DNA of 42,005 nucleotides, from IMG/VR virus record IMGVR_UViG_3300042545_000949, positions 1-42,005 of that record; one strand, given 5' to 3'. Source of the stretch: a virus. Each line of letters opens with the position of its first letter. Position 1 is the first letter of the stretch. A program made the translations under genes and the position numbers. Positions 1 to 20,956 of this stretch are shown piece after piece. The notes below the pieces were generated by a model, which saw nothing but the letters and a program-made list of their open reading frames with translations, did no database searches and was not told the DNA's origin.

Positions 1-154
1 ACAATTTGCAACGGGATCCATTCTTTTTAAAATGCTCACACTCATTACAAATTTTCAAACGGGAGTTAACAATTTCCTCTGACGCCCTAGGCGTAGAAGG
101 CTTAAGCCAATCACCTATAGTAACATCCTTAGATTCGTCAGAACTTTTAGACAA
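1..154 (-). CDS. Cys-rich zinc-ribbon-like small protein (partial)
   Basis: Reading the minus strand, an open frame starts at a TTG (154-152) that overlaps the stop of the preceding minus-strand gene and runs off the left edge after 51 codons. A GAGGTG ribosome site lies just upstream. The visible end reads SRLKICNECEHF followed by a further Cys-Lys. This matches the start of the Cys cluster in the small protein at 4878-5111 (SRMAICKKC ... CKKCGC), so both probably belong to the same phage family of short four- or five-cysteine, presumably zinc-binding proteins. Their function is unknown. The family match is inferred from about 20 residues. The start codon is uncertain because no ATG is available. 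Confidence 0.6.
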   Translation of the reverse strand, partial: MSKSSDESKDVTIGDWLKPSTPRASEEIVNSRLKICNECEHFKKNGSRCKL

Positions 155-743
155 TTAACACCTCTGGCTCGCCTATTAGCGATTTAGAAACGGTAGTCCA
201 TAATTGATACGACATAGACGGACTTATCTTTGCATGCATTCCTTGTATATCCATAACGTATTTAAAACCACCCTTTTTAGACTCTCTAACTCCCCATACA
301 CCATTATAGTCTAGCATAGAAGCCTCAAATACAAATAGCTGATATTTCTTATCTTCATCCTTTTCGGGTATATTAGACCAATCCGATTCTACCTTTGCTA
401 GACATATATAGTAATCAGCATGTGTATCATTTATTGCCTCTACCATTTGTTCTAATGTGTCATGTTTTCCTAATCTGCTCCCCGAAAATCTCAATGTACC
501 CTTTTTTGGGTCATAGACTCCAGACTTGATTGAAAATGATTGACCCGTCTCTAGGGTAAGATCTTTGGATACGGTATGAGATCTATTTGGCTTCCAGTCA
601 TTTTCCAAACCATTATCTTTTAAGGTTTGGGCAATAAGCTCTTCTAAAAATTCTGCAATTGCAGGCAGGCGATATAACATGTGATGTGTTTTTAATTTTG
701 CAGGAAGGAAGGTTTGTAATATATTCCTAATTGTCTCTACCAT
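147..743 (-). CDS. Hypothetical protein, possibly a restriction-endonuclease-like nuclease
   Basis: A 198-residue soluble protein. The ATG at 743 is preferred over the upstream TTG at 746 because a TGGTATACT box on the minus strand (758-750) ends 6 nt before it, which predicts a leaderless mRNA. The middle of the protein (about residues 61-93) reads D-L-T-L-E-T-G, then SIKSG, then a beta-like stretch ending SGSRLGKHDTLEQM. This arrangement of acidic residues followed by a Lys in a strand recalls PD-(D/E)xK restriction-type nucleases, but I cannot identify a family. No partner methylase is visible. It is co-oriented with the downstream Cys-rich gene, overlapping it by 8 nt, and divergent from the membrane protein at 920. 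The nuclease call is weak; the gene itself is well supported. Confidence 0.6.
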   Translation of the reverse strand: MVETIRNILQTFLPAKLKTHHMLYRLPAIAEFLEELIAQTLKDNGLENDWKPNRSHTVSKDLTLETGQSFSIKSGVYDPKKGTLRFSGSRLGKHDTLEQMVEAINDTHADYYICLAKVESDWSNIPEKDEDKKYQLFVFEASMLDYNGVWGVRESKKGGFKYVMDIQGMHAKISPSMSYQLWTTVSKSLIGEPEVLIV

Positions 744-749
744 CAAACC

Positions 750-758
750 AGTATACCA
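750..758 (-). promoter_or_regulatory. Extended -10 promoter, leaderless start of the 743 gene
   Basis: The minus strand reads TGGTATACT. Six bases separate the box from the ATG at 743, so the predicted +1 is the A of the start codon. There is no Shine-Dalgarno sequence between them. Confidence 0.7.
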
Positions 759-784
759 AAGATCACCAGATATGTCTACATAGG

Positions 785-800
785 TGGATACGTGTATCCA
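785..800. promoter_or_regulatory. Perfect inverted repeat between divergent promoters (operator candidate)
   Basis: TGGATAC-GT-GTATCCA: two perfect 7-bp arms around a 2-bp centre. It lies in the gap between the divergent promoters at 750-758 and 904-912. The symmetry suits a dimeric DNA-binding protein. No regulator gene is visible in the window, so the operator role is inferred from position and symmetry. Confidence 0.4.
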
Positions 801-903
801 AGGTTTGTAGGTATGTGGTTTGTTTAATCTCTATTTCGGCGAACTTAAAATCGGCTTTGTAATTCGGGCGAACTTTAAAAAATATTTTTTTTATCTTATA
901 TAA

Positions 904-912
904 TGATATAAT
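904..912 (+). promoter_or_regulatory. Extended -10 promoter, leaderless start of the 920 gene
   Basis: TGATATAAT, with 7 bases before the ATG at 920. The predicted +1 coincides with the start codon. No Shine-Dalgarno sequence is present. Confidence 0.7.
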
Positions 913-919
913 TATACTT

Positions 920-1132
920 ATGACTCTACAAGACTGGGCTGCATTAGTATTATCACTTTTATCAATTTTTGTTATTGTAGCTGGCGGAATCAAATGGCTT
1001 GTAAAACATTACCTAAGTGAACTTAAACCAAATTCTGGATCATCACTAAAAGATTCCGTTAATCGCTTAGAAGAAAAAACTGACAAAATATTTGATCTTG
1101 TTGTTGAACATTTAAAAGATCATTCTAAATAA
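920..1132 (+). CDS. Small single-pass membrane protein with coiled-coil tail (holin-like candidate)
   Basis: A 70-residue protein with one clear hydrophobic segment (about residues 8-28, LVLSLLSIFVIVAGGIKWLV). A short linker containing SGSS follows, then a charged, heptad-like helix (about residues 42-66, VNRLEEKTDKIFDLVVEHL). This layout is common among small phage membrane proteins found near lysis genes (holin-like or DUF2746-type). The lysozyme-like gene is far away at 12065-12607, so genomic context does not confirm a lysis role. It is expressed from its own leaderless promoter and stands alone between the minus-strand cluster and the fibre genes. A holin accessory, a membrane anchor and a superinfection-exclusion protein are all possible. 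Confidence 0.7.
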   Translation: MTLQDWAALVLSLLSIFVIVAGGIKWLVKHYLSELKPNSGSSLKDSVNRLEEKTDKIFDLVVEHLKDHSK

Positions 1133-1344
1133 TTTACTATATATAATATATAAAAGATATTTTAAAAACCTTATTTGCTTATATCTCTTTTCTTATATAT
1201 TTTAAGTATACACTATCCAATACCCTGGCCTAATAGACATAACATAACAAAACGGACATTTAAGACAATAACAATTTGATAACAAATAAAAATATAACAA
1301 AAAGTTATAAAATCTTTATACTCTGGTATTTTTAAAGAATATAA

Positions 1345-1353
1345 TGTTATACT
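1345..1353 (+). promoter_or_regulatory. Extended -10-like box before the C-rich island
   Basis: TGTTATACT. An ATG at 1358 gives only a four-codon frame (MAGP then stop). If this box is active, the transcript would begin with the C-rich island and then read into the fibre gene at 1438. Confidence 0.45.
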
Positions 1354-1422
1354 TTGTATGGCTGGCCCCTAGGTTGCTCTCTACCCACCCCCCACTGCCC
1401 CTAGGGGCTTAGTCATTTAATA

Positions 1423-1431
1423 TGATATAAT
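1423..1431 (+). promoter_or_regulatory. Extended -10 promoter, leaderless start of the 1438 gene
   Basis: TGATATAAT, with 6 bases before the ATG at 1438 and no Shine-Dalgarno sequence. The predicted +1 is at the start codon. Confidence 0.7.
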
Positions 1432-1437
1432 CCTTAT

Positions 1438-1854
1438 ATGTGCTCTCCTACAATAGAAAAATTTGGCGCTACACCAGCAAATATACAATGGACAGTTGTT
1501 CGTGGAGACTATGCTTCATTTACAGTTTCATTTCTTGAAAATAATGAAGTTACAGAATTTGATACAGATGGATGGGCATTTGCTGCCACCGCCTATGATC
1601 CAATAACAGATGTTCTAGATGAGCTAGAAGTTTCTATTGATGGATCAGTAGTAACAGTAAGTGCCCCAGCATCTGTAACAGAAAATTGGGGAATAAAATA
1701 TAGATCAGTAGTGGCAGAGCTATCTTTTGACCTACAGGCAATAGTTCCAGATGGAGCATCAACAATTACCTGGACACCAGTTATTGGAACAATTTGCGTA
1801 TTAGGAGATGTATCTCCAGGAAATACAAGAAACACTATTGGGGGAGTTTCTTAA
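1438..1854 (+). CDS. Fibre-associated Ig-like / BppU-N-like protein 1
   Basis: A 138-residue beta-rich protein. It opens with a strand reading IQWTVVRGDYASFTVSF. The same element recurs in two other window proteins, at 2702 (YYRGDTFQFVA) and 13302 (VSWTVVKGDTAAFRV), so the three form a family. Short beta-sandwich proteins with this 'GD-x-x-x-F' opening and a C-terminal 'G-x-I-x-V' strand are frequent in phage baseplate and fibre clusters and resemble the N-terminal domain of BppU-type baseplate proteins. The role is probably a structural adaptor or attachment domain at the tail tip. It begins a run of fibre genes and is followed directly by a 27-codon ORF. The start is set by the leaderless promoter. 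Confidence 0.7.
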   Translation: MCSPTIEKFGATPANIQWTVVRGDYASFTVSFLENNEVTEFDTDGWAFAATAYDPITDVLDELEVSIDGSVVTVSAPASVTENWGIKYRSVVAELSFDLQAIVPDGASTITWTPVIGTICVLGDVSPGNTRNTIGGVS

Positions 1855-1938
1855 ATGATAATTAAAATTAAAGACACTAACCCAAAGCTTCCACCATTAA
1901 TAAAAGTTAATGGGACTATTTTTAAAGTAAAGAAATAG
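1855..1938 (+). CDS. 27-residue hypothetical peptide
   Basis: The ATG follows directly after the TAA of the preceding gene, and the frame ends 4 bases before the collagen-like gene. The product is basic and compact ([15 protein letters not shown], ending in [10 protein letters not shown]). It has no hydrophobic segment and no recognised motif. The tight packing (stop, start, 27 codons, stop, 4-nt gap, next start) suggests it is translated by coupling, but it could be a chance frame. No function can be assigned. Confidence 0.45.
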
Positions 1939-1942
1939 TCTT

Positions 1943-2677
1943 ATGGCCATATCAAAAAATATGGATGGTCCAAAAACAAAATATTCAGAAACAGTTAAAT
2001 CAACAAAAAGCATAGAATTAAGTAACACCGAGTATATTGCTGTTCCAGGAAACCAAGGGGAAAAAGGCGAACAAGGCCCTCCAGGACCACAAGGACCAGA
2101 GGGTCCAAGGGGCGAGAGGGGACTTACGGGAAAAGACGGCAAAGATGGCCCACAAGGTCCTAAAGGGGAACCTGGAAAAGGTGGTGGACAAGGATATGAA
2201 AGTCCATCAGGACAATATCCAGGATGGGCATACTATGAAAATAAAGAAAGAAAGCCGTTATTACTTGGTCCAGACAGAGGAGATGATGGATGGGTAAATA
2301 TTTTAATGCATGATGATGAAAATAAAAGTATTTTAAATTTTTTGCCAGAAGGATCAGTATCGCTTTGGAATTCTTACACTCAAAGAATTAATTTTAAACA
2401 GTTAAAAATAGGAACAAAAGTAGACATAAGATACGATATAACAATTACAACAGACACAAATAACACAGAGGCTTGGATAAGAACTTATACTCCAAAAGTA
2501 GAGTCTCCAACGGCATACATTGGAATGTTGAAATATAGGTATGTTTATGATATGTCTGTTAATCAAACACTATATATAAACCTTTCAAAAATTAAGTCAG
2601 AAGGTGCAATTATTCAGGCTAGAGCAGACAATGAAAGCACTATACTTTTAAAAGGCATGTATATCTCTGTCTCTTAA
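1943..2677 (+). CDS. Collagen-like tail fibre / surface protein
   Basis: A 244-residue protein with three parts. Residues 1-35 are a short N-terminal region. Residues 36-83 contain about 16 uninterrupted Gly-X-Y triplets rich in Pro, Lys and Glu, including [12 protein letters not shown] and GEP, as in collagen triple helices. The C-terminal part (about 90-244) is a beta-rich globular domain with [18 protein letters not shown] and DDGWVNIL stretches. In phages, collagen-like rods form trimeric fibres or surface decorations, and the C-terminal head often sets trimerisation or binding. It lies in the fibre cluster, about 3 kb upstream of six dioxygenase genes of the prolyl-hydroxylase fold; whether its prolines are hydroxylated is an open question. 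Confidence 0.85.
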
Positions 2678-2686
2678 TGGTATAAT
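2678..2686 (+). promoter_or_regulatory. Extended -10 promoter with the SD at the mRNA 5' end
   Basis: TGGTATAAT begins at the base after the upstream stop codon. A strong AGGAGG (2692-2697) and the ATG at 2702 follow. The predicted +1 (about 2693) falls in the Shine-Dalgarno sequence, so the leader would be only about 9 nt. Confidence 0.65.
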
Positions 2687-2701
2687 AAACTAGGAGGAAT
2701 A

Positions 2702-3055
2702 ATGGCATTTCCAAGCGTATATAATTTTTCGTATTATCGTGGTGACACTTTTCAGTTTGTTGCCCGTCCAAAATCAGCAAATGGAGAAACTTTTCCATTA
2801 GACGGTTTTACAGCAATTTTTACAATTGCTAACCAAAGAGGGTCTGGTGCAACACAGTATGCAGCAAGTGCAACTGTAAATACATCGCTAGACATAGTTA
2901 CATGTACAATTAATCCATCGGTAGGAAGATCGCTAAGTAGTGGTTCTTATGTTTATGATGTTCAAGTTACAAATACAACCCCAGATCCAGATGTTATTTA
3001 TACTTTACTTACTGGAACAATTACAGTTCAAGATGACGTAACTGGTGCAGTTTAA
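2702..3055 (+). CDS. Fibre-associated Ig-like / BppU-N-like protein 2
   Basis: A 117-residue all-beta protein and paralogue of the products of 1438 and 13302. It opens with FSYYRGDTFQFVARP. A middle segment reads FPLDGFTAIFTIANQRG, and it ends SYVYDVQVTNT ... YTLLTGTITVQDDVT. The closing pattern 'Y-D-x-Q-V ... T-L-x-x-G-x-I-x-V-x-x-D-V-T' is typical of short phage baseplate or fibre adaptor domains. Its stop overlaps the start of the next gene by one base (TAATG), implying coupled translation and perhaps a physical partnership with that fibre protein. It has its own promoter and a perfect Shine-Dalgarno sequence. The fold assignment is by pattern only. Confidence 0.7.
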   Translation: MAFPSVYNFSYYRGDTFQFVARPKSANGETFPLDGFTAIFTIANQRGSGATQYAASATVNTSLDIVTCTINPSVGRSLSSGSYVYDVQVTNTTPDPDVIYTLLTGTITVQDDVTGAV

Positions 3056-3615
3056 TGACAGATGTTGTTTTATCTAATGACGACATTACCATTCTTGGTC
3101 CACCGTCAACCATTGATCTTTCAGTTGACATAGGTCCACAAGGAGATCGTGGTAGTCAAATTTTTGTTGGAGTAGGAGATCCAAATACAATTGAAATTGG
3201 ACAACAAATAGAATTAAACGATATGTACATAAATACTTCTCCTGGTGTTGACTATGGATATATGTATCAATATAGATCAGAGCCTGGTGGAAATGTTTGG
3301 GTAGAAACACTTAAAATAAGTCCTGCAATTTACTCAAAAAACATATTGACAACATATACAAGTGGTGCAGCACAAATAACTATTCCAATAAATGACATTG
3401 TTACTGTTTCTGGAGCACCACTAACATCATCAAACTTTAACGTTCAATATAGTATTTCTCATACAAATCCAATAGCTTCTTCAATGGCTATTCCAGCTTT
3501 ATCGGGTTCAGAAAACCTTGTTATTAATTTTAAAGCAGTCCAAAGCACAACTGGAACTTGGTCAAATTTATCTGGAGAGGTTGTTACGCATATTTTTATA
3601 TCAATAGTTATTTAA
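3055..3615 (+). CDS. Putative tail fibre / minor tail protein
   Basis: A 186-residue protein translated by TAATG overlap from the preceding Ig-like gene. An N-terminal beta region ends in a short IGPQGDRGSQ segment, a minimal collagen-like stub common where phage fibres switch from adaptor to shaft. Next comes a glycine-poor segment with aromatic residues (GYMYQYRSEPGGNVWVETLKI, about residues 62-83) that resembles the 'product W' elements of fibre tip domains. The C-terminus is a beta-rich stretch ending VVTHIFISIVI. It probably belongs to the same fibre assembly as the genes at 1943 and 3644. The exact role is unknown. Confidence 0.6.
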   Translation: MTDVVLSNDDITILGPPSTIDLSVDIGPQGDRGSQIFVGVGDPNTIEIGQQIELNDMYINTSPGVDYGYMYQYRSEPGGNVWVETLKISPAIYSKNILTTYTSGAAQITIPINDIVTVSGAPLTSSNFNVQYSISHTNPIASSMAIPALSGSENLVINFKAVQSTTGTWSNLSGEVVTHIFISIVI

Positions 3616-3643: not shown

Positions 3644-4357
3644 ATGGCAGCAGAAAGTATAGGAACACTAGTTCCAACAAAGATTCCAGGCTATTCAGAT
3701 GCTGCTGATATACAAGCAGCTCTAAGGGTTTATCACTACGGATCATATACTTTTGATACAGCAGAGTCAAATACTGCAAACCTTGTAAACCCCTCAATTG
3801 CATATACAATTAATGATCTTCAGTCTCAAATTGATGGTATTTCTGGATTAGATCCAAGCCTTTATACAGCAAAAGGTTCATTACTAAGTGCTTCAGCTGC
3901 ATCTACAGTGTCTTTGTTAACTGTTGGATCAAACGGTACTGTATTAACTGCAAACTCTGGAACTGCAACAGGACTTGAATGGGCAACGCCATCAGTTACT
4001 GCAACTAATACAGTTACACTTACAGGAAAAACATTAACTGCTCCAGTAATTAATATAGCAACAAATGCACAAACAGCATCATATTCTTTAGTTTTATCTG
4101 ATGCCTCAAAAATTGTAGAGGTTTCAGTTGGTTCAGCCAACACACTAACAATTCCAACTAATGCATCTCAAGCATTTCCTATCGGCACACAAATATTAAT
4201 TCTTCAAACTAACACTGGACAAACAACACTTACTGCAGCAAGTGGAGTTACCGTTAATGCTACACCAGGACTAAAGCTAAGAACTCAATGGTCATCAGCT
4301 GTATTGGTTAAACGTGCTACAGATACATGGGTTGCTTTAGGCGATTTGGTAGCTTAA
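3644..4357 (+). CDS. Tail fibre protein with modular repeat
   Basis: A 237-residue fibre protein. Residues 1-60 are a specific N-terminus. Residues about 75-120 carry a module (AKGSLLSASAAST ... VGSNGTVLTANSG ... GLEWATP) that recurs with changes in the long fibres at 14411 and 16897 (AKGDLIVG ... GTNG-x-VLTANSGA ... EW-x-AP). The following 'TLTGKTLTAPVI' matches the 'TLTNKTLTSPVV' elements of those fibres. The C-terminal domain (about 140-237) resembles the end of the 16897 protein (SYSLVLSDASK ... TIPTNASQAFPIGTQI). It therefore looks like a compact version of the longer fibres. It has its own promoter. Confidence 0.8.
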   Translation: MAAESIGTLVPTKIPGYSDAADIQAALRVYHYGSYTFDTAESNTANLVNPSIAYTINDLQSQIDGISGLDPSLYTAKGSLLSASAASTVSLLTVGSNGTVLTANSGTATGLEWATPSVTATNTVTLTGKTLTAPVINIATNAQTASYSLVLSDASKIVEVSVGSANTLTIPTNASQAFPIGTQILILQTNTGQTTLTAASGVTVNATPGLKLRTQWSSAVLVKRATDTWVALGDLVA

Positions 4358-4358
4358 A

Positions 4359-4865
4359 ATGTCATTTATCCTTATGGGGGCACAAGGATCTGCTGGGCAT
4401 CAGCCAGGAATACCTACCATAGGAACTGCCACTACTTCAGCTTCACAAACAGTAAGTGTTCCTTTTACTGCTCCATCTTATTTAGGAAAACCAACTGGAA
4501 CAAGTTATATTGCAATTTCAAATCCAGGTGCAATAACTGGAACTTCATCAACTTCTCCAATATCAGTTACAGGGTTAACTAATGGAACCGCATATACTTT
4601 TACTGTTAAGTTAAACAATGGAGTTGTAGATTCTTTATCTTCAGAAGCATCTAATTCTGTAACACCCGTTGTTCCAGGACCGTTTTTCCCACCATTCTTT
4701 CCGTTCTTCCCTTACTTCCCGTTCTTCCCAACATTTTTACCATGTACTCCAGGAACAGTATGTGCAACAGGAACAAATAACGAACCACAAGGTCCGTGTG
4801 ATTATGTTATAGCTTGGAGCAGTACTTGTACCTGTACAGTTGAAGTTTCTTACGTTTGTTATTAA
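4359..4865 (+). CDS. Fibronectin type III protein with FFP repeats and Cys-rich tail
   Basis: A 168-residue protein. The N-terminus (MSFILMGAQGSAGHQPG) is followed by one fibronectin type III-like domain (about residues 17-105: PTIGTATTSASQTVSVPFTAP ... VTGLTNGTAYTFTVKLNN). Next is a Phe-Phe-Pro-rich segment (about 108-126: FFPPFFPFFPYFPFFP). The C-terminus of about 40 residues holds six cysteines, including STCTCTVEVSYVCY. Fn3 domains on phage virions usually serve as surface decorations or carbohydrate-binding modules; the FFP stretch is unusual. It is a close relative of the product of 5161. The start follows the upstream stop by one base; no strong ribosome site is visible, so coupling is likely. 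Confidence 0.75.
   Translation: MSFILMGAQGSAGHQPGIPTIGTATTSASQTVSVPFTAPSYLGKPTGTSYIAISNPGAITGTSSTSPISVTGLTNGTAYTFTVKLNNGVVDSLSSEASNSVTPVVPGPFFPPFFPFFPYFPFFPTFLPCTPGTVCATGTNNEPQGPCDYVIAWSSTCTCTVEVSYVCY
4678..4740 (+). repeat. FFP-coding short repeats, copy 1
   Basis: Degenerate 9-12 bp units built on CC(A/G)TTCTTCCC encode Phe-Phe-Pro and Tyr-Phe-Pro steps at the end of the Fn3 domain. Confidence 0.75.
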
Positions 4866-4877
4866 AAGGGGATAAAA

Positions 4878-5111
4878 ATGTCAAAACCGTATAACCGTAC
4901 AGCAAAACCATGGGACTTGTTTAATCCAGCTATGCAGAAGGTATCAGATGAAATTGCAGATAGCCGTATGGCTATATGTAAGAAATGCCCTGAACTTATT
5001 AAACTTACAAGCCAGTGTAAAAAATGTGGATGTATCATGAATCTTAAAACTAAGTTAGCTATTGCATCCTGCCCACTAAATAAATGGGAACAGGTAGAAA
5101 ATGTTAAATAA
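4878..5111 (+). CDS. Small Cys-rich zinc-ribbon-like phage protein
   Basis: A 77-residue protein with five cysteines in its second half plus one near the end: ICKKC (about 35-39), QCKKCGC (about 48-54), and ASCPLNKW (about 66-73). The order 'I-C-x-x-C ... C-K-x-C-G-C-x-M-x-x-K-T-K-L ... S-C-P-x-x-K-W' is a recognisable small family widespread in phages of aquatic bacteria. The function is unknown; zinc binding is inferred from the cysteine spacing. A second, partial member lies at the left edge on the minus strand. AAAAGGGG (4866-4873) precedes the ATG. It sits between two Fn3 genes, so it may be co-transcribed with them. Confidence 0.7.
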   Translation: MSKPYNRTAKPWDLFNPAMQKVSDEIADSRMAICKKCPELIKLTSQCKKCGCIMNLKTKLAIASCPLNKWEQVENVK

Positions 5112-5128: not shown

Positions 5129-5161
5129 ATGAAGGCAGTACGAATGAGAGGCTTAAAGTAA
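5129..5161 (+). CDS. Ten-residue leader peptide ORF (candidate)
   Basis: ATG at 5129, 10 codons (MKAVRMRGLK), and a TAA whose last base is the first base of the next gene's ATG (TAATG). The start lies where the mRNA should begin after the TATAAT box, so the peptide would be read from a leaderless transcript. The downstream gene would be re-initiated at the overlap, helped by an internal GAGAGG (5146-5151). The peptide is basic. Chance occurrence cannot be excluded for such a short frame. Confidence 0.4.
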   Translation: MKAVRMRGLK

Positions 5162-5610
5162 TGAGTGCAAAGAATAAAGGAATTATTTCTTCTTCTGGTG
5201 GACGTAAACCAGGAACTCCAACCATAGGATCAGCAACAGGTGGAAACGCACAAGCCACTGTTACTTTCACAGCACCGTCATATTTAGGAAAACCAGCTGG
5301 AACTAGCTATATTGTAACATCAAGCCCAGGTAGTATAACTGCTACAGGTTCAGGTTCTCCAATCACTGTTACAGGTTTATCAAATGGAACAGGATATACA
5401 TTTGTTGTTGCATTAAGAAATTTAGATTCTGCTGGACAAATTGAAGCAACATCTGATAATTCTGCTGCTTCCAACTCAGTTACTCCAGTAGCCCCACCAT
5501 TCTTCCCACCATTCTTCCCACCGTTCTTCCCATTCTTCCCACCTTACTTCCCGTTCTTCCCAGGATTTGCTCCACCCCCATACTTCCCAACATTTACTGG
5601 TTGTTGGTAA
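5161..5610 (+). CDS. Fibronectin type III protein with long FFP-repeat tail
   Basis: A 149-residue protein. A short Ser/Gly-rich N-terminus leads into one fibronectin type III-like domain (about residues 18-110: TPTIGSATGGNAQATVTFTA ... VTGLSNGTGYTFVVALRN). The C-terminal 37 residues are almost only Phe, Pro and Tyr, in FFPPFFPPFFPFFPPYF-type repeats, ending YFPTFTGCW. The Fn3 part is clearly paralogous to the 4359 product, which has a shorter FFP tract and a Cys-rich end. Such a hydrophobic, proline-spaced tail could pack against other virion proteins or insert in a membrane or envelope. The function is unknown, but virion association is likely from context. Confidence 0.75.
   Translation: MSAKNKGIISSSGGRKPGTPTIGSATGGNAQATVTFTAPSYLGKPAGTSYIVTSSPGSITATGSGSPITVTGLSNGTGYTFVVALRNLDSAGQIEATSDNSAASNSVTPVAPPFFPPFFPPFFPFFPPYFPFFPGFAPPPYFPTFTGCW
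5494..5600 (+). repeat. FFP-coding short tandem repeats, copy 2
   Basis: Near-perfect units of CCACCATTCTTC (12 bp) mixed with 9-bp CCATTCTTC steps. They encode the FFPP/FFP tract, and the array has the look of a slippage-prone minisatellite. Confidence 0.8.
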
Positions 5611-5679: not shown

Positions 5680-6390
5680 ATGCAAACCTATGATGAAAAT
5701 GAAAACCCATGGTTTACAAAAGACAGATCAGAAACAGTATTAAATAGAGTTAACAGATCTGTTGATGAAAAGATTACTGTTGAAAATCCAGGTATCGGAT
5801 TAAACATATACAAGAATACTTTTTCAATTGATGATGCAAATAGATATATAAATATTCTTGAATCAAATCTATCAGGTGATAAAAAATATAAATGGGCAGA
5901 GGCTACAGTTACTAACTCACCTAATCCAATTAAAAAAGCAAGAGACTGTGTAGATTTTAAGTATAAGCAAGAAAATTTAGGGCCAAGAGATGAAACAAAT
6001 GAAGAACTAATTGATCTTCATGAAGAGATATATCAAAAACTAAAATATTGCATAGATGATTATGCAAAATATTGGGGAATACATGTTGTTTATTATGAAG
6101 CATTTAATTTTGTAAAATATGAAGGTGAAGGAACGCACTTTAACATTCATGCAGACCACGGACCAGCATATAACTGCACAGTATCTGCCGTTATATACAT
6201 TAATGATGATTATGAGGGTGGAGAAATTAAATTTCCAAGATTAGATAATTATGTGCATAAACCACAAGTTGGAGACATAGCAATTTTTCCATCAAATTAT
6301 ATCTATGAGCATGCATCATTGCCAATGAAGACAGGAACTAAGTATTGTGTTGTTGTAATGACAGACATAAATGAACTTGGTCATAAATAG
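5680..6390 (+). CDS. 2OG-Fe(II) dioxygenase 1 (prolyl-hydroxylase-like)
   Basis: A 236-residue enzyme of the 2-oxoglutarate and Fe(II)-dependent oxygenase fold, closest in pattern to prolyl 4-hydroxylase-type (P4Hc) proteins. Iron ligands are H157-x-D159 (in FNIHADHG) and distal H211 (YEHASLP). The 2OG-carboxylate position ten residues later is K221 instead of the more usual Arg. The core 'Y-I-N-D-D-Y-E-G-G-E-I-K-F' and 'KPQVGDIAIFPS' are typical of the double-stranded beta helix. It should couple 2OG decarboxylation to hydroxylation of an unknown substrate. It is the first gene of the island, translated from a strong ribosome site, and overlaps the next gene by one base (TAGTG). It is closely related to the 7185 product. 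Confidence 0.9.
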   Translation: MQTYDENENPWFTKDRSETVLNRVNRSVDEKITVENPGIGLNIYKNTFSIDDANRYINILESNLSGDKKYKWAEATVTNSPNPIKKARDCVDFKYKQENLGPRDETNEELIDLHEEIYQKLKYCIDDYAKYWGIHVVYYEAFNFVKYEGEGTHFNIHADHGPAYNCTVSAVIYINDDYEGGEIKFPRLDNYVHKPQVGDIAIFPSNYIYEHASLPMKTGTKYCVVVMTDINELGHK

Positions 6391-7172
6391 TGAAGTCAGT
6401 AAACTTTAATAAAATAATTTTTAGATCTTACAAAGATTGGCTAAACAAAGAAAGTCCATCAGTTCCATCCCCTACTCAAAACACAATACCTGATTGGTAT
6501 AAAAATGCGGATAGATTTTTTAAGGATCCAATTACTAAAAAACACTATCCAGCATCAAAAGAAATTTGTCCTTTTCCAAAAGAAGGAACAAAAAATGACT
6601 ATGGAAAGATTCCTACATGGAAAGCCTGTCCAGCAATTATGGATTCATTTTTAACTGGATATATATTAAAAACTCCATGCGATATTAGATTTTTTAAAAA
6701 CAATAATGACATAATTGATGTTGAAATTTTAGATCAAAAGTATAAAGATTTTTGCAGTAGAAGACCACCTATGCCACAATTTAAACATCCAGAAGGTTTT
6801 TATCAGGATCATTTTGCTTGGTATCCAGATTGGGGATTTGAGCTACCAGAAGGCTATAGTGCTTTATTTATGACACCAATGAACAGATTTGATCTACCAT
6901 TTTTAAATACAACTGGAGTTGTTGATAATGACAAGGTTCATCTTTTAGGAACGTTTCCATTTTTTATTCCAATAGGATGGGAAGGAACTATTCCAGCAGG
7001 AACCCCATATATGCAAGTTTTGCCATTTAAAAGAGAAAATTGGGAGCATGAGGTAGAATTTCAAAATCAAACAACAATTTATGATAAAATGGTAAAGAAC
7101 ATGAAGTTTTACCGTCAACCAGATGGTGGGATATACAAAAATAAAGTTTGGAATAAAAGAGAATATAAATAA
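6390..7172 (+). CDS. DUF6065-like protein 1 (uncharacterised)
   Basis: A 260-residue soluble protein starting with GTG in a TAGTG overlap with the preceding dioxygenase. Recognisable elements are NTIPDWYKNADRFF (about 31-44), TWKACPAIMDSFLTGYIL (about 76-92) and FPFFIPIGWEGTIPAGTPYMQVLPFKR (about 188-214, split here by its motifs). These resemble an uncharacterised family seen in bacteria and aquatic phages, which I believe is DUF6065 or a relative. The protein is probably beta-rich and cupin-like. It has no identified catalytic motif. The repeated order dioxygenase-DUF-dioxygenase-DUF suggests a functional pair with the oxygenase, perhaps as a substrate-binding partner. The family name is from memory. 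Confidence 0.65.
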   Translation: MKSVNFNKIIFRSYKDWLNKESPSVPSPTQNTIPDWYKNADRFFKDPITKKHYPASKEICPFPKEGTKNDYGKIPTWKACPAIMDSFLTGYILKTPCDIRFFKNNNDIIDVEILDQKYKDFCSRRPPMPQFKHPEGFYQDHFAWYPDWGFELPEGYSALFMTPMNRFDLPFLNTTGVVDNDKVHLLGTFPFFIPIGWEGTIPAGTPYMQVLPFKRENWEHEVEFQNQTTIYDKMVKNMKFYRQPDGGIYKNKVWNKREYK

Positions 7173-7184
7173 AAAGGGGAAACT

Positions 7185-7862
7185 ATGAAAACTTGGACAG
7201 AAAAACAAAATTTAGGCAGCGGTATTTTTTTGTATAAAAATGTAATTAAAAAAGAATTTGATGTAATAAATACACTTGAGAGTGTTCTAGGATCAGTTGC
7301 TGGATATGGAGAGCTATCTCCTGAAGGAAACAAATATCACTGGATGCCAGCATATGTAGGATACAAAGAGCTTATGCCAGAATACAGAGATTGTGTTGAT
7401 TTTAAATTTAAAAAAACAGATATAGAAAATGATAAAAGTGAAAAATCTTTAATTTTGCAAGATCTATGGCAAAAAGTTTATGATGCACAGTTTGCTGCTG
7501 TAGAAGATTATCGTGCAGAATACAACATAATGGGCTTAAACTATTGGGAGGCATTTAATTTTATTAAATATGGTCCAGGACAACACTTTCAAGAACATCA
7601 TGATCATGGTTTTTCCTACAACTGTACAGTTTCTTTAGTTGCATACGTAAACGATGACTATGATGGCGGAGAATTAAACTTTAGACTTCAAAATTTAAAT
7701 GTTAAGCCAGAAGCTGGTGACTTGTTTATATTTCCATCAAACTATATGTATCCACACAGGGCAATGCCAGTTCATTCTGGTACAAAATATTCAATTGTTA
7801 CAATGTTAGATTTTAACAAAAAATTTCATACCCCAGAAATGTATACTCCAGATACAGACTAA
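7185..7862 (+). CDS. 2OG-Fe(II) dioxygenase 2 (prolyl-hydroxylase-like)
   Basis: A 225-residue paralogue of dioxygenase 1. Metal ligands are H138-x-D140 (FQEHHDHG) and H191 (YPHRAMP). The 2OG-binding position is K201 (SGTKYSIV), again Lys. Segments shared with dioxygenase 1 include DCVDFKFK, EAFNFIKYG, YNCTVS, NDDYDGGEL and DLFIFPSNYMY, which shows an origin by duplication. AAAAAGGGG lies 5-12 bases before the ATG. The stop overlaps the next start (TAATG). The substrate is unknown. Full conservation of the iron triad argues for an active enzyme. Confidence 0.9.
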   Translation: MKTWTEKQNLGSGIFLYKNVIKKEFDVINTLESVLGSVAGYGELSPEGNKYHWMPAYVGYKELMPEYRDCVDFKFKKTDIENDKSEKSLILQDLWQKVYDAQFAAVEDYRAEYNIMGLNYWEAFNFIKYGPGQHFQEHHDHGFSYNCTVSLVAYVNDDYDGGELNFRLQNLNVKPEAGDLFIFPSNYMYPHRAMPVHSGTKYSIVTMLDFNKKFHTPEMYTPDTD

Positions 7863-8575
7863 TGTTAAATATTTCTGTAGAAAAAAGGACTAAGTCTAAG
7901 ACAATCATATCTCCAATGTCAATAAAAAGAGATTGGATGGATGAAACTCCAGAAAAGCATGCGTATAGGTGTTTTCCAGTTACTCAGGCAAACATGATTG
8001 GTTGGAATTTAGCATGGAGTGAAGATGTTAAATTTATTTGGAATGGAATAAACGACACATCACAAGACAATGTTAAAATTTTAGGAGAAGATAGTTTAAT
8101 CTATACTGGAAGAGGGCAATCAAGTATAAGCTTTACAACAGGTCTAACATTTAAAACAGAAAATAATATTAGCTTGTTTACAATAAATCCAGTAAATTAT
8201 TTTAATTTAGAGTTTGAAGTTATATCTTCACTTATTAGTACTTCTTGGTTTGACAATGATTTTCCATTAGCAATAAAAGCAAAGGTTCCAAATAAAGAAA
8301 TATTAATAAAGGCAGGCCAGCCAATTGCAACAATCCTTCCAATTTCTTTGACGGCACTAGATAATACCTCAATTAAAATACATGACTATAAAGATGAAGA
8401 CAATGTAAGACAAAACAAACATAGACTATATGGAATTGCCGCTCAAGAAGTAAACAAGTCTGGTAACTGGACAGATTGGTACAGAGATGCAATAAATGAA
8501 AAAGGTCAAAGCTTAGGAAGTCATGAAACAAAGGTTTTACGTCTTTCAGTAGAAGATAACAGTGAAATGGTATAA
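7862..8575 (+). CDS. DUF6065-like protein 2 (uncharacterised)
   Basis: A 237-residue protein coupled by TAATG to dioxygenase 2. The N-terminal third carries HAYRCFPVTQANMIGWNL (about 33-50), the most typical element of the DUF6065-like family (C/F-P-x-T-x-A-N-x-x-G-W). Later segments 'LFTINPVNYF' and 'LIKAGQPIATILPIS' fit the same family and resemble the end of DUF6065-like protein 1. Its stop codon lies inside the -10 box of the next gene (TAA within TATAAT), an extreme case of compaction. No catalytic residues can be named. Association with the oxygenases is inferred from the repeated gene order. Confidence 0.65.
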   Translation: MLNISVEKRTKSKTIISPMSIKRDWMDETPEKHAYRCFPVTQANMIGWNLAWSEDVKFIWNGINDTSQDNVKILGEDSLIYTGRGQSSISFTTGLTFKTENNISLFTINPVNYFNLEFEVISSLISTSWFDNDFPLAIKAKVPNKEILIKAGQPIATILPISLTALDNTSIKIHDYKDEDNVRQNKHRLYGIAAQEVNKSGNWTDWYRDAINEKGQSLGSHETKVLRLSVEDNSEMV

Positions 8576-8576
8576 T
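8568..8576 (+). promoter_or_regulatory. Extended -10 promoter, leaderless start of dioxygenase 3
   Basis: TGGTATAAT, containing the upstream stop codon. Six bases separate it from the ATG at 8583, and no ribosome site is present. Confidence 0.7.
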
Positions 8577-8582
8577 CTAATT

Positions 8583-9257
8583 ATGGATAATTTAAACGCC
8601 TCTGTTGTAGTAAGAAAGCCTTCAATGACACCCTCTGGTTGGTTTGGTAACGGCAAAGAAATGATTGTTGAGCTAGAAAACTTTATGACTCAAGAAGAAA
8701 TAGAGTTTTTAGAAAAAGCTGCAAAGTCTTTAACTATATGGGATATAACTCAAAGCCATATAAATGAAAATGGAACAGTTGTCTATGACTCTGAATATTG
8801 GAAAGATAGAGTGGCAACTAGTCCAACTTTAGATAAAAATGATCCAACAATTGCTCCAGTAATTGCAGGATTATTTAAAAGGCTTAAGCCAATAGTTGAA
8901 GAGTTCTACAAGGTAAAGGTTATTCCAACTGGTACAACTATTGTTAGATGGCTTCCAGGCCAGTTTCAGAACCCTCATGCAGATAAAGAACTACACGAAG
9001 GCCCAGATGCAGGACTTCCTAATGATTTTCCAAACTATGACCTTTCAAGTCTATTTTATTTAAACGAGGACTATGAAGGTGGAGAATTATATTTTCCACT
9101 ACAAGGTGTACAGTTTAAACCTAAAAAAGGTGCAGCGTATTTTTTTCCAGGTGATATGAATTACGTTCACGGAGTAACAGAAATTAAAAGTGGTATAAGA
9201 TATACCTGTCCATTTTTCTGGGAAATAACAGAGCATACAGGAGATAGAAAGCCATGA
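8583..9257 (+). CDS. 2OG-Fe(II) dioxygenase 3 (prolyl-hydroxylase-like)
   Basis: A 224-residue enzyme. I start it at the ATG 8583 rather than the in-frame GTG 8562, because the GTG start would translate through the promoter box. Iron ligands are H132-x-D134 (FQNPHADKE) and H196 (NYVHGVTE); the 2OG-binding residue is R206 (SGIRYTCPFFW), the classical form. The core FYLNEDYEGGELYF and KPKKGAAYFFPG are typical. It is more like classical P4Hc/PKHD enzymes than dioxygenases 1 and 2. It overlaps the next gene by 4 bases (ATGA). Having its own promoter, it heads a second transcription unit in the island. Confidence 0.9.
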   Translation: MDNLNASVVVRKPSMTPSGWFGNGKEMIVELENFMTQEEIEFLEKAAKSLTIWDITQSHINENGTVVYDSEYWKDRVATSPTLDKNDPTIAPVIAGLFKRLKPIVEEFYKVKVIPTGTTIVRWLPGQFQNPHADKELHEGPDAGLPNDFPNYDLSSLFYLNEDYEGGELYFPLQGVQFKPKKGAAYFFPGDMNYVHGVTEIKSGIRYTCPFFWEITEHTGDRKP

Positions 9258-10003
9258 ACTTAAATAACAAAAAAAGAATAACAAAGGATATAGTAGTATA
9301 CGAAAACTTTATTGATGAAGAAACTTGTCAAAAAATGATTAATGTTTTAGATGCACAAGCAAATAACAATAAAATATCATGGATGCCAATTTCTTTTTAT
9401 GAGTCATACTCATCTATTCTTCCAAAAGATGGAGATCAAGAAGTTCTTGATACTGGATTAGTTCCAACAATTTTTTCAGACATTGAAAATATAATGCCAC
9501 AGGCAATAGCATCTATTCATAATTTAGATCCAAAAACAATTTCTAAGATTGGATACCATACACAAAAATGGGAGCCAGGGGCATATGCAAGAATGCACTC
9601 AGACAATACTGATGAACATGGAAACTCTGGAGCATTTACAAGAAGTCGTTATGCTGGATTCTTGTACCTTAATGATAATTTTGAAGGTGGAATACTTAAA
9701 TTTCCAGATCAAAATATAGAAATTAAGCCACAGGTTGGAATGCTTGCTGTTTTTGACGGTGGATTTAATAACATGCACGAAGTATCCTTAATAGAAAGTG
9801 GAGTAAGATACACAATAGGATCTTTTTGGGACGATAGAGAAGAAGATGCTTATCCACAAGAACTAAGAGATTCATGGGCAGCAGAAATGAAAGAAACAAG
9901 AGCAAAGCAAGAAGTTGAAAGAGCAAAATGGCAAGAAATTCTTAAAGAAGGATACAAGATTGATGATAAAGGAAATAAATACAAGATAAAAGGACTTGAT
10001 TAA
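9254..10003 (+). CDS. 2OG-Fe(II) dioxygenase 4 with charged C-terminal helix
   Basis: A 249-residue enzyme. Iron ligands are H115-x-D117 (YARMHSDN) and H175 (NNMHEVSL), with 2OG-binding R185 (SGVRYTIGSFW). The beta-helix core reads FLYLNDNFEGGILKF and KPQVGMLAVFDGG. Unlike its neighbours it has a C-terminal extension of about 55 residues (195-249) rich in Glu, Lys and Arg, predicted helical or coiled-coil, which could mediate complex formation. It is translationally coupled by the ATGA overlap with dioxygenase 3. The substrate is unknown. Confidence 0.9.
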   Translation: MNLNNKKRITKDIVVYENFIDEETCQKMINVLDAQANNNKISWMPISFYESYSSILPKDGDQEVLDTGLVPTIFSDIENIMPQAIASIHNLDPKTISKIGYHTQKWEPGAYARMHSDNTDEHGNSGAFTRSRYAGFLYLNDNFEGGILKFPDQNIEIKPQVGMLAVFDGGFNNMHEVSLIESGVRYTIGSFWDDREEDAYPQELRDSWAAEMKETRAKQEVERAKWQEILKEGYKIDDKGNKYKIKGLD

Positions 10004-10004
10004 C

Positions 10005-10664
10005 ATGGAAACATTTTTAAAAAAAGAACTTGAAGAAGCTGGCTTTGTTGTAGATGAAATTATGGAGAATGTTTTAGTAGTAGAAAATTTTATTTCAGAA
10101 GAAGAATTAGAAATAATTCTTAATATTATAAATGACACAAAAGAAGAAACATGGTTTATAGAATATACTCAAAATTTAAAACGTTTTTGTCTAGAAAAAT
10201 TTGGAAGAGATGACGTAGATAGCCTTGTTGCTGAAGGAAAGTTTGAAGTTACTAAAGGTTGGCAAGACAAAAATTTAAACATAGTTGATAACCCAATATA
10301 TAAAATAATTCATAAAAAATTAAACGTTTTTGTTCAAGAGGCAGATGATTCTTTAGGGCTTTCTGGTTTTGGAACTATACAAAGAATGCAGGAGGGTATT
10401 GAACTAAAACCTCATACAGATCAACATACTGACCCTTCAATTAAGTATGCTGCAATAATATATTTAAACGATGACTATCTTGACGGAGAACTTTTTTTTA
10501 AAAAAAATGAACAACTAATAAAGCCTAAAAAAAGATCTTTGCTTATATTTCCTGGAAATGATGAATTTGAACACGGAGTAAAACACGTTGGAAAGGGACC
10601 AATTAGGTATGTTCTTGTTGGTTTTGTAAAAATAAAAAATTTTTATAAGAATAATAAATACTAG
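10005..10664 (+). CDS. 2OG-Fe(II) dioxygenase 5
   Basis: A 219-residue enzyme. The ATG at 10005, one base after the upstream stop, is preferred to the TTG at 9996. Iron ligands are H137-x-D139 (LKPHTDQH) and H190 (FEHGVKH), with 2OG-binding R201 (GPIRYVLVGF). The core reads IIYLNDDYLDGELFF and KPKKRSLLIFPG. The N-terminal 30 residues form an acidic helix-rich lead. The sequence differs strongly from the other five, so these are old duplicates or separate acquisitions rather than recent copies. Confidence 0.9.
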   Translation: METFLKKELEEAGFVVDEIMENVLVVENFISEEELEIILNIINDTKEETWFIEYTQNLKRFCLEKFGRDDVDSLVAEGKFEVTKGWQDKNLNIVDNPIYKIIHKKLNVFVQEADDSLGLSGFGTIQRMQEGIELKPHTDQHTDPSIKYAAIIYLNDDYLDGELFFKKNEQLIKPKKRSLLIFPGNDEFEHGVKHVGKGPIRYVLVGFVKIKNFYKNNKY

Positions 10665-10676
10665 AGAAAAGAAAAA

Positions 10677-11372
10677 ATGATGAAAAAAACTATACTAGAA
10701 GAAAAAGTTTATTACTATGAGGACTGTATTAAAAATTTTGAAGAGCTAATGAAAACGATTGACAAACTAGATGAAATGGAAAAATCTGAAGGTATATCTT
10801 CTTGGTTAGACTGGACAGCATCTAATGATAAAACCTTTATCTACGGATTAACAAAAACCTATGACTTGTCTGAAATTAATAATATGCAAGAACCATACAA
10901 ATCTAAAATGCTTTATGTTTATAACACAATTTCTGAGTCTTTTTATGAAGTTTGTAAAGATTATGCCTTGGCTATGGGAGACACAGATGAGCCAAATTTA
11001 TTTCCTGTTTTTAACATAAAAAAATATAATGCTGGAGTAGGAATGGGATCTCACTTTGATCAAAATGACGGAGACACAACACTAAGGTATTCCTTTAACA
11101 TATACTTAAATGATGATTTTGATGGTGGAGAAGTATCGTTTACTCTTTCCGATTATGATAAAAGAAATGAAAGACCTTCTCCTGAACTAGATTATGACAT
11201 TGCAGTAAAAAATAATTCAGTTGATTTTGCAGTAAAACCTAAAGCAGGAAGTATTGTTATTTTTCCATCATCAGCACCATATTATCATACTGCTCACTTA
11301 GTAAAAAATAAATTTAAGTATATGATACCAGGACACTGGATACACAACGATATGCCAATGCGTAATCGCTAA
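10677..11372 (+). CDS. 2OG-Fe(II) dioxygenase 6
   Basis: A 231-residue enzyme. Iron ligands are H126-x-D128 (GSHFDQND) and H204 (PYYHTAH). The 2OG-binding position is K214 (NKFKYMIPGHW), giving the Lys form also seen in dioxygenases 1 and 2. The core reads NIYLNDDFDGGEVSF, and KPKAGSIVIFPS comes after an insertion of about 30 residues (155-186) containing a Pro/Asp-rich loop. That loop may shape a different substrate pocket. The start could be either of two adjacent ATGs (10677 or 10680). The ribosome site is weak (AGAGAAAAG). Confidence 0.88.
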   Translation: MMKKTILEEKVYYYEDCIKNFEELMKTIDKLDEMEKSEGISSWLDWTASNDKTFIYGLTKTYDLSEINNMQEPYKSKMLYVYNTISESFYEVCKDYALAMGDTDEPNLFPVFNIKKYNAGVGMGSHFDQNDGDTTLRYSFNIYLNDDFDGGEVSFTLSDYDKRNERPSPELDYDIAVKNNSVDFAVKPKAGSIVIFPSSAPYYHTAHLVKNKFKYMIPGHWIHNDMPMRNR

Positions 11373-11383
11373 AGGCAATAAGA

Positions 11384-12052
11384 ATGAAAACAGCAATAGT
11401 TACAGGGGCAAGTAAGGGTGTTGGGTATGCCACTGTAAAACTTTTATCTGAAAGTGGATACAAAGTTATTGCTGTTTCAAGAAACTTGTCAAAAGTCTCT
11501 AATCTTATTTGTGACAATGTTGAGGTGTATCAATTAGACATTACAGACTCTGTTGGAGTTAAAACATTTTTTGAAAAATATAAAGAAATATCTTTAGATC
11601 TTTTAGTGCACAATGCTGGTGGTGGAGCAAGTCCAACCACTATTGTAAACGAAACACCAGAAAATTTTAGAAAAGCATATGACATAAATGTAACTGGACC
11701 AATGTATATGTCTCAGTTGTTTGTTCCGTGCATGCAAAAATCATCTTCTCCCACTATTATTTTTATTAATTCTTTTGGTGGAAAGGTTCCATATCCTGGA
11801 GGCGGAAACTATACAAATGCTAAAAGAGGACAAAGAGGACTAATTGACACAATGCGAATAGAATTTCCGCAGTATAAAATTAAAATTACTGAGATTTGCC
11901 CAAGCACAATTGACACACAGGAGCAAAAAAAAGATAATGCTTTAACTGCAGAAGATATGGCAGAGGCTATAAGCTGGGTAGCATCAATGCCTAGCCACGT
12001 AAACATTAATGAGATAGAAATATGTCACATTAATGGAAATAGGTATAGATAG
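11384..12052 (+). CDS. Short-chain dehydrogenase/reductase
   Basis: A 222-residue SDR with a Rossmann fold. The cofactor motif TGASKGVG is at 7-14, followed by the structural NAGG (77-80) and N102 in INVTG. The catalytic residues are S130 (INSFGG) and Y143-x-x-x-K147 (YTNAK). S33-R34 after the second strand suggests NADP(H) preference, which is an inference. It is shorter than the usual ~250 residues and ends soon after the substrate loop. It closes the dioxygenase island and could oxidise or reduce a hydroxylated product or a sugar-like substrate. The real substrate is unknown. Confidence 0.88.
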   Translation: MKTAIVTGASKGVGYATVKLLSESGYKVIAVSRNLSKVSNLICDNVEVYQLDITDSVGVKTFFEKYKEISLDLLVHNAGGGASPTTIVNETPENFRKAYDINVTGPMYMSQLFVPCMQKSSSPTIIFINSFGGKVPYPGGGNYTNAKRGQRGLIDTMRIEFPQYKIKITEICPSTIDTQEQKKDNALTAEDMAEAISWVASMPSHVNINEIEICHINGNRYR

Positions 12053-18925: not shown

Positions 18926-20956
18926 ATGTCAGATGTCTTTTCTTTTCGCTTAACAGATGAATTTATAAATAAATACTCAGATCTTCCAGCACCATTTGGT
19001 TATCAGGATGCTGGATCAAACTCGTTAGGTGAGATTACCTTTATAAGAACATATTCTCGTATGAAAGAAGACGGAACAAAAGAAAGATGGCATGAGGTTT
19101 GCAAGCGTGTAATTGAGGGTATGTACTCAGTTCAGAAAAACCATGCAAAAGAAAATCGTTTACCTTGGAACGACAATAAGGCACAAAAATCTGCACAAGA
19201 AGCATTTCAAAGAATGTTTGAATTAAAGTGGACTCCTCCAGGTCGTGGTATGTGGACATTTGGAACCCCCATGACAATGGAAAAAAGAAACTCTGCTGCA
19301 CTTCAAAACTGTGCAATGGTATCTACAAGAGACATTGACCGCAATGACCCAGGAGCACTATTTTCATGGGTTATGGATGCCCTTATGCTTGGTATTGGAG
19401 TAGGCTTTGATACATTAGGTCAAGACAAAGAAATGCTTATCTATGGACCTACAGAGCCCGTTAATACCTATGTTATTCCTGATACCCGTGAAGGCTGGGT
19501 AGAGTCAGTTCGTATGCTATTAAACTCATACCTTCGTCAAAACCAAAATATTCAACAATTTGATTATTCTAAAATTCGTCCACTGGGTGCACCAATTAAA
19601 GGGTTTGGTGGAGTAGCATCTGGACCACAACCACTAATTGATTTGCACAACAGAATTGACAAAGTAATTGGCGGAAGAGCAGGAGAACTTCTTGACTCAC
19701 GTGCAATTACAGATATTGTTAACCTTATTGGAACATGCGTTGTTTCTGGAAATGTTCGTCGTTCAGCTACACTTGCTTTAGGAATTCCTGAAGATAAAGA
19801 TTTTATTAATCTTAAAAATCCAGAAGTATTCCCAGAACGCAACTCTTATGATTCAAATAATCCAGGTTGGGCTTGGATGTCTAATAATTCTATTTCTGCA
19901 ACAGTCGGAACAAAGTATGAAGACTATGTAGATTTAATTTCAGATAATGGAGAGCCAGGTTTTATTTGGCTTGATGTTGCTCGTAATTATGGTCGTCTTG
20001 CAGATCCAGCAGATGGTAAAGATTATCGTGTAATGGGTTTTAACCCTTGTGCTGAACAACCACTAGAAAGTTATGAGTTGTGCACTCTTGTTGAAGTGCA
20101 CCTTAATCGTCATGACTCTAAGGAAGACTTCTTAAAGACATTAAAGTTTGCATATCTTTATGGAAAGACTGTAACTCTTCTTCCAACACACTGGCAACAG
20201 ACAAACGGCATTATGCAGCGCAATCGTCGTATTGGAACTTCTCTTACTGGTATTGCATCTTTTGCAGATCAGAAAGGATTACCAATTGTTCGTGAGTGGA
20301 TGGATGAAGGATATAATAAAATTCGCAGCTACGACAAACAATATTCAGAATGGCTTTGTGTGCGTGAATCAATTCGTGTAACAACAGTTAAACCATCAGG
20401 ATCAGTTTCATTGCTTTCTGGTGCAACCCCTGGAGTTCACTGGGGACCTGGAGGATCATTTTATTTACGTGCTATTCGTTTTGGTAATACAGATCCAATG
20501 ATGCATTTATTTAAAGCAGCAGGGTATAAAATTGAAAAAGACCTTGTATCAGCAAATACAGATGTAGTGTATTTTCCAGTAGCATCAGGACACCCAAGAT
20601 CTGAAAAAGAGGTAAGCTTGTTTGAAAAAATTGGCTTAGCAGCAACAGCACAAAAATATTGGTCTGATAATGGAGTTTCTGTAACTTTGTCATTTAATAA
20701 AGAAGAAGAAACTAAGTTTATTGCTCCAGCACTTCATATGTATGAAGGACAGCTAAAGGCAGTTTCATTTCTTCCAATGGGAAATAAAACTTATCCACAA
20801 CAGCCATATACAGAAATTACAAGAGAAGAATATAATGCATATGTTGGCACAATTGGAAAAATTGATTGGTCTGCTATTTATGACGGTATTGATAATCTTG
20901 AGGCACAAGGTGAAGCCTATTGCTCAACAGATGCTTGTGAAATTAAACTATATTAA
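18926..20956 (+). CDS. nrdJ: Adenosylcobalamin-dependent class II ribonucleotide reductase
   Basis: A 676-residue enzyme reducing ribonucleoside triphosphates to deoxyribonucleotides with B12 as radical source, as in the monomeric Lactobacillus leichmannii type (~740 residues). Key residues are all present: the redox pair C129 (LQNCAMVS) and C386 (YELCTL), the thiyl-radical C375 with N373 and E377 (FNPCAEQ), the substrate loop VKPSGSVSLLSG, and a C-terminal C666-x4-C671 pair (CSTDACEIKLY) that shuttles electrons. No separate activity-cone domain is obvious. It sits alone between terminator and promoter, inside the tail gene region, rather than with replication genes. It supplies dNTPs during infection and needs host cobalamin and thioredoxin. 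Confidence 0.95.
   Translation: MSDVFSFRLTDEFINKYSDLPAPFGYQDAGSNSLGEITFIRTYSRMKEDGTKERWHEVCKRVIEGMYSVQKNHAKENRLPWNDNKAQKSAQEAFQRMFELKWTPPGRGMWTFGTPMTMEKRNSAALQNCAMVSTRDIDRNDPGALFSWVMDALMLGIGVGFDTLGQDKEMLIYGPTEPVNTYVIPDTREGWVESVRMLLNSYLRQNQNIQQFDYSKIRPLGAPIKGFGGVASGPQPLIDLHNRIDKVIGGRAGELLDSRAITDIVNLIGTCVVSGNVRRSATLALGIPEDKDFINLKNPEVFPERNSYDSNNPGWAWMSNNSISATVGTKYEDYVDLISDNGEPGFIWLDVARNYGRLADPADGKDYRVMGFNPCAEQPLESYELCTLVEVHLNRHDSKEDFLKTLKFAYLYGKTVTLLPTHWQQTNGIMQRNRRIGTSLTGIASFADQKGLPIVREWMDEGYNKIRSYDKQYSEWLCVRESIRVTTVKPSGSVSLLSGATPGVHWGPGGSFYLRAIRFGNTDPMMHLFKAAGYKIEKDLVSANTDVVYFPVASGHPRSEKEVSLFEKIGLAATAQKYWSDNGVSVTLSFNKEEETKFIAPALHMYEGQLKAVSFLPMGNKTYPQQPYTEITREEYNAYVGTIGKIDWSAIYDGIDNLEAQGEAYCSTDACEIKLY

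Follow-up and report, generated by a model that had tools for sequence, protein, structure and literature searches.

A compact island of six divergent 2-oxoglutarate (2OG)-Fe(II) oxygenase genes is linked, in phages with unrelated structural genes, to an upstream gene encoding a long repeat of Pro-Phe-Phe-Pro (PFFP) type. The window, that is, the whole stretch of DNA analysed, is the linear IMG/VR virus record IMGVR_UViG_3300042545_000949 (42,005 bases), from a freshwater bacterial virus. The island (5680-12052) holds nine genes, all on the plus strand, whose ends overlap or nearly abut to form one tightly packed operon: the oxygenases, here OX1 to OX6, two DUF6065-like proteins, DUFa and DUFb, and an SDR dehydrogenase (Table 1). 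An earlier note on this DNA had described the island, with no mention of the pair of PFFP genes in front of it. We think it probable, judging from gene content and conservation, that this is a portable module for post-translational modification, whose array of prolyl 4-hydroxylase-type (P4H-type) oxygenases would hydroxylate the upstream PFFP protein, with DUF6065 as a partner.

Searches with both DUF proteins gathered more than 150 related viral loci. Gene order is conserved among them as OX1-DUFa-OX2-DUFb-OX3-(extra)-OX4-OX5-OX6-(SDR), and the neighbouring fibre, lysozyme-like and ribonucleotide reductase (RNR) genes vary. Among the optional neighbours in the relatives are glycosyltransferases, which adjoin a few cassettes, as well as TauD oxygenases and a GSHPx-like protein. 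A PFFP array gene lies upstream in all 65 loci with at least three oxygenases and an upstream stretch of 3 kb, usually 0.5-2 kb from the cassette and 6-7 kb away in a few. After deduplication, 50 loci have an upstream PFFP gene and six do not, these six mostly holding diverged or slightly more distant arrays.

The linkage was also seen in a scan blind to oxygenases, in which viral contigs were searched for DNA encoding PFFPPFFP. Among the matches listed, 100 viral loci had real arrays and 73 of these held an oxygenase (66 downstream on the same strand, seven elsewhere in the locus), at a median gap of 537 bases; 19 of the other 27 have one elsewhere on the contig, which brings the total to 92 of 100 contigs. 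A control scan for collagen repeats, again among the matches listed, found an oxygenase in 5 of 109 loci, none with three or more, and in 7 of 50 whole records (Fisher p 5e-27 for loci and 5e-22 for contigs or records), and PFFPPFFP occurred in none of the 50 control records. Bacterial matches to PFFPPFFP were mostly single chance or antisense occurrences. The sole oxygenase-linked array among them (L357, positions 1-3605) lies on a phage-like contig in a Verrucomicrobiales metagenome-assembled genome and is accompanied by OX3, OX2, DUF6065 and three TauD-like-looking open reading frames of ~290 amino acids; its placement may hint at a host or reflect a binning error.

The window is of a siphovirus type; a portal like its own (40-78% identity) is present in 26 of 50 PFFP records and absent from 24. 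Three of the latter were examined in pieces and assigned to lineages by PHROG matches: a 128 kb siphovirus (G106) whose portal belongs to a different family (phrog_776) and whose tail is of Dit type, a 105 kb myovirus with a contractile sheath (phrog_23) and different head genes (G088), and a 76.6 kb genome carrying ParB-like and glycosyltransferase genes (G080). All three show fibre, PFFP, oxygenase cluster and DUF6065, and the part shared by every divergent case is PFFP, OX3, OX2 and DUF6065. In phages of the window's own group, the cassette occupies several sites (before the RNR gene, a lysozyme-like gene, portal-side genes and others), and despite these differing sites a PFFP gene is upstream in nearly every case with enough sequence. 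Because the linkage outlasts changes of phage lineage and of site, we argue that cassette and PFFP gene form a functional unit, and since oxygenase clusters travel with the PFFP protein in related and unrelated viruses, this protein is the probable substrate. A tblastn search of a phage collection with OX3 gave no match except three marine single-cell contigs, in the fetched stretches of which no PFFP array was seen.

The island had been described as encoding six strongly divergent oxygenases, each with a complete iron triad, and this was borne out. All six open reading frames exceed the PF13640 cut-off in profile searches (35.5-57.7 bits against 27), and the 42-kb record contains no PF13640 gene beyond them. 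Five of the six orthologue groups (95-148 sequences each) keep the H-x-D...H triad and the 2OG-binding Lys or Arg almost without exception; in the sixth, OX5, which has two H-x-D motifs, the true one is HTDQ, intact in 69 of 71 orthologues. Pairwise identity of the other five to OX3 is 21-28%, and the six form six separately supported clades in a maximum-likelihood tree, which argues that they are old, distinct orthologous groups rather than recent duplicates. It is plausible that each has its own substrate or site, as had been supposed. The start of OX3 is suggested to be ATG 8583 rather than GTG 8562, because the alignment with orthologues points there. OX3 is the one enzyme of the six whose double-stranded beta-helix fold is supported by a model (AlphaFold; predicted local distance difference test (pLDDT) score 90), and its best fold match is vCPH of the chlorella virus PBCV-1 (PDB 5c5t, E 4.6e-11), followed by other prolyl hydroxylases. 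Its profile search matches include prolyl 3- and 4-hydroxylases, PHD2 and lysyl hydroxylase.

Both PFFP genes of the window lie just upstream of the island and encode arrays of the type PFFPPFFPFFP... The proteins of this class consist of ~196 residues of Fn3-type sequence, then the array, then a short tail. Of 98 short tails, 64 are rich in Cys. The window copies do not reach the fn3 cut-off (E 7.6e-4 for PFFPa), but relatives exceed it. The repeat follows a strict grammar, P-[F/Y/H/S/W]-F-P. Across 195-199 distinct PFFP proteins, the two residues between prolines are FF in 2774 units, YF in 307, HF in 52, SF in 34 and WF in 13, the position before Pro being Phe almost always. As many as 187 DNA versions encode the 1394 FFPPFFP units, and it is therefore the peptide, not the DNA, that is conserved. 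Array length correlates weakly with the number of oxygenases (rho 0.39, p 0.03, n=31). About 28 of 199 PFFP proteins end in a Hint/intein-like domain, each match being below the cut-off with several families in agreement, which suggests an autoprocessing event that would expose the C-terminus of the repeat. The domain follows directly behind the array in the PFFP genes of six loci (L140, L149, L211, L276, L081 and L275).

Judged by its distribution, DUF6065 is a near-obligate partner of the cassette: members of the family were found in 216 of the 222 cassette loci, and 42 of 50 PFFP records have PF19541. The earlier description of two DUF6065-like proteins holds fully for DUFb, which matches PF19541 well above the cut-off (1.4e-28, 100.5 bits, cut-off 26.6), and in part for DUFa, which matches no Pfam family at E 0.01 and shares only phrog_7084 with DUFb (~20-24% identity). 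The DUFa model (pLDDT 80) weakly matches dUTPase/dCTP-deaminase folds (best PDB E 2.6e-3, template modelling score 0.29-0.56). Homologues of DUFa are also found in Hafunaviridae haloviruses (HSTV-3, HF2), between class II RNR and tail or tail-fibre genes, with no annotated oxygenases nearby. In the literature searched, mostly without subscription journals, we found no description of DUF6065 function or of a phage PFFP repeat. The SDR assignment was confirmed, and its candidacy as a core gene was rejected, as it is present in just 77 of 222 cassette loci.

Table 1 Features of the oxygenase island and its surroundings in the window.
Feature	Positions	Strand	Remarks
Collagen-like (G-X-Y) tail fibre	1943..2677	+	Alternative substrate
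Tail-fibre protein	3644..4357	+	g05-type fibre genes often directly before PFFP genes
PFFPa	4359..4865	+	Fn3-like domain, Pro/Phe array (PFFPPFFPFFPYFPFFP), Cys-rich C-tail; candidate substrate
Small Cys4 protein, DUF6171	4878..5111	+	Recurs near cassettes
PFFPb	5161..5610	+	Fn3-like domain, Pro/Phe array (PPFFPPFFPPFFPFFPPYFPFFP...); candidate substrate; 69 bp upstream of OX1
OX1, PF13640 2OG-Fe(II) oxygenase	5680..6390	+	H157/D159/H211, K221; own clade, support 97/93
DUFa, distant DUF6065-like paralogue, phrog_7084	6390..7172	+	Predicted beta fold, weakly dUTPase/dCTP deaminase-like
OX2, PF13640	7185..7862	+	H138/D140/H191, K201; minimal core
DUFb, DUF6065 (PF19541)	7862..8575	+	Minimal core
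OX3, PF13640	8562..9257	+	H139/D141/H203, R213; most conserved; minimal core
OX4, PF13640	9254..10003	+	H115/D117/H175, R185
OX5, PF13640	9996..10664	+	H141/D143 (HTDQ), H193, R204
OX6, PF13640	10677..11372	+	H126/D128/H204, K214
SDR (adh_short)	11384..12052	+	1.8e-39; accessory, cassette end

We propose that the gene directly upstream of the cassette supplies the substrate, an Fn3-like protein that carries a long P-[F/Y]-F-P array and is probably located on the virion surface or associated with tail fibres. The core enzymes OX2 and OX3, aided by OX1 and OX4-6, would hydroxylate residues of this array during infection, using host 2-oxoglutarate, O2 and Fe(II), and the modified residue would most likely be proline in an F-P or P-P context. 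As a result, a very hydrophobic repeat may become soluble, stiff (polyproline-II-like) or adhesive, and the product could be a surface adhesin or fibre element. DUF6065 is perhaps a substrate-holding or small-molecule-binding subunit, and optional later steps may fall to the SDR or, in those relatives that have them, to TauD enzymes or glycosyltransferases. The idea of a dedicated modification pathway, already present in the earlier note, is strengthened by the link to one class of repeat protein in unrelated phages. That note had also expected virion proteins or surface glycans to be the targets rather than DNA; virion or surface proteins do fit better than DNA or glycans, given the PFFP linkage and the prolyl and lysyl hydroxylases among the best matches, and glycans as a direct target found no support.

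Several points count against hydroxylation of the PFFP protein. Linkage is no proof of an enzyme-substrate relation, as both could share one adhesion module, and six enzymes for one simple repeat seems to exceed the need; some may therefore act elsewhere, for instance on the Fn3 domain, a collagen-like fibre or host proteins. Eight of the 100 PFFP contigs among the matches listed lack an oxygenase, most of them being short fragments, and the collagen control set was not matched to the PFFP set by habitat. Moreover, the resemblance to prolyl hydroxylases in the PDB is partly due to database bias. A broader version of the proposal, to which we would give somewhat less than even chances, is that a multi-enzyme system for protein hydroxylation moves horizontally among tailed phages and produces a new kind of hydroxylated Phe-Pro repeat fibre or adhesin, which a C-terminal Hint domain sometimes autoprocesses as well.

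The best surviving alternative, which we still regard as unlikely, is that the targets of the array are host proteins or small metabolites, in host takeover or auxiliary metabolism, and that it stands beside fibre genes incidentally. It would agree with the frequency of 2OG oxygenases in aquatic phages, where they are filed as auxiliary metabolic genes (PHROG labels), and with the SDR often joined to the cassette, but an order-conserved tie to one structural-type gene, across phages with unrelated structural genes and at different sites, would be difficult to account for if the substrate were not local. Slightly less likely still, the oxygenases could act like the collagen hydroxylases of animals, PBCV-1 and mimivirus and hydroxylate Pro or Lys in tail fibres of collagen-like (G-X-Y) type, with PFFP a mere neighbour. 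The window encodes such a fibre, the G106 cassette is adjoined by several collagen-like genes, and the vCPH-like model of OX3 would suit this activity. Nevertheless, of 23 distinct cassettes only nine have a collagen open reading frame within 5 kb, whereas 21 have PFFP, and the collagen-bearing phages among the matches listed in the control scan generally lacked oxygenases. We disfavour the collagen fibre as main substrate because it lies near only part of the cassettes.

It is also improbable, in our view, that the PFFP protein is modified on Phe or Tyr, by aromatic or beta-hydroxylation, instead of on Pro. The Phe before Pro is the most constrained position of the unit, and Tyr replaces only the first Phe, but among enzyme relatives of known chemistry the closest ones modify Pro and Lys, and the constancy of Phe may equally reflect recognition. 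Nucleic-acid modification by TET/JBP-like base oxidation is very improbable: OX3 reaches 19.7 bits against the Tet_JBP Pfam model, far below the cut-off of 34.9, and its profile finds one Tet-like PDB chain (E 0.0088), while scores are much higher for protein prolyl hydroxylases, no partner genes for base modification were seen in the cassette and the position is among fibre genes.

The remainder of the window encodes fibres, class II RNR, portal, Trp halogenase, head protease, capsid and tape measure. An actinobacterial host is plausible, because portal (45-47% identity) and capsid (~44%) resemble those of the Streptomyces phages Comrade, Belfort and Coruscant, which we take to be of Stanwilliamsviridae type; in contrast to the window, no homologues of OX3, DUF6065 or the PFFP N-domain were found in phages of this type. 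The four-cysteine DUF6171 protein occurs near cassettes in ~21 loci and is a possible metal carrier. The RNR gene (18926-20956, phrog_367) lies among fibre genes here and directly after the oxygenase cassette in many relatives. It is followed by a gene for a 1229-aa protein with no PHROG match (20990-24679), conserved behind RNR in relatives (40-52%). A flavin-dependent tryptophan halogenase (26743-28113; PF04820, 4e-86) is encoded between portal and head protease; it was rejected as part of the module, since a single one of the 38 PFFP-bearing records checked has it.

Of the unexplained 'auxiliary metabolic genes' of aquatic phages, those for 2OG-Fe(II) oxygenases are among the commonest, and the PFFP protein is a concrete candidate substrate for one entire class of these enzymes. 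If the broader version of our proposal is correct, this would be the first dedicated pathway for structural-protein hydroxylation in a prokaryotic virus, with several non-redundant hydroxylases on one repeat. If the proposal itself holds, the role of this class of phage 2OG oxygenases would shift from host metabolism to virion-protein maturation, DUF6065 would gain an assigned process, phage assembly would acquire an O2- and 2OG-dependent step, and hydroxylated PFFP would be a new repeat biomaterial.

Plant hydroxyproline-rich glycoproteins (extensins) offer an analogy, as their Pro-rich repeats are built to be densely hydroxylated on proline and then glycosylated; the repeat and the kingdom are different and there is no homology. 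Closer in kind are the 2OG-Fe(II) oxygenases that make up PHROG 61, from phages such as Synechococcus phage S-H9-1; they are members of the same superfamily, with a reported structural similarity to the prolyl hydroxylase EGLN3. Many phage proteins are EGLN3-like according to the Phold paper, which proposes neither a substrate nor a PFFP partner (PMC12774648). The nearest precedent is PBCV-1, for which, by the account in a citing article, a prolyl 4-hydroxylase and 4-hydroxyproline in viral proteins were described (Eriksson et al. 1999, cited in PMC9301287); viral use of this enzyme has been called cryptic (PMC9301287). Like the enzymes proposed here, vCPH is a virus-encoded P4H-type protein, reported in that account to be active on viral peptides. 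It comes from a eukaryotic algal virus, whereas the operons described here belong to tailed phages, combine 5-13 divergent paralogues with DUF6065 and are linked to a Phe-Pro repeat.

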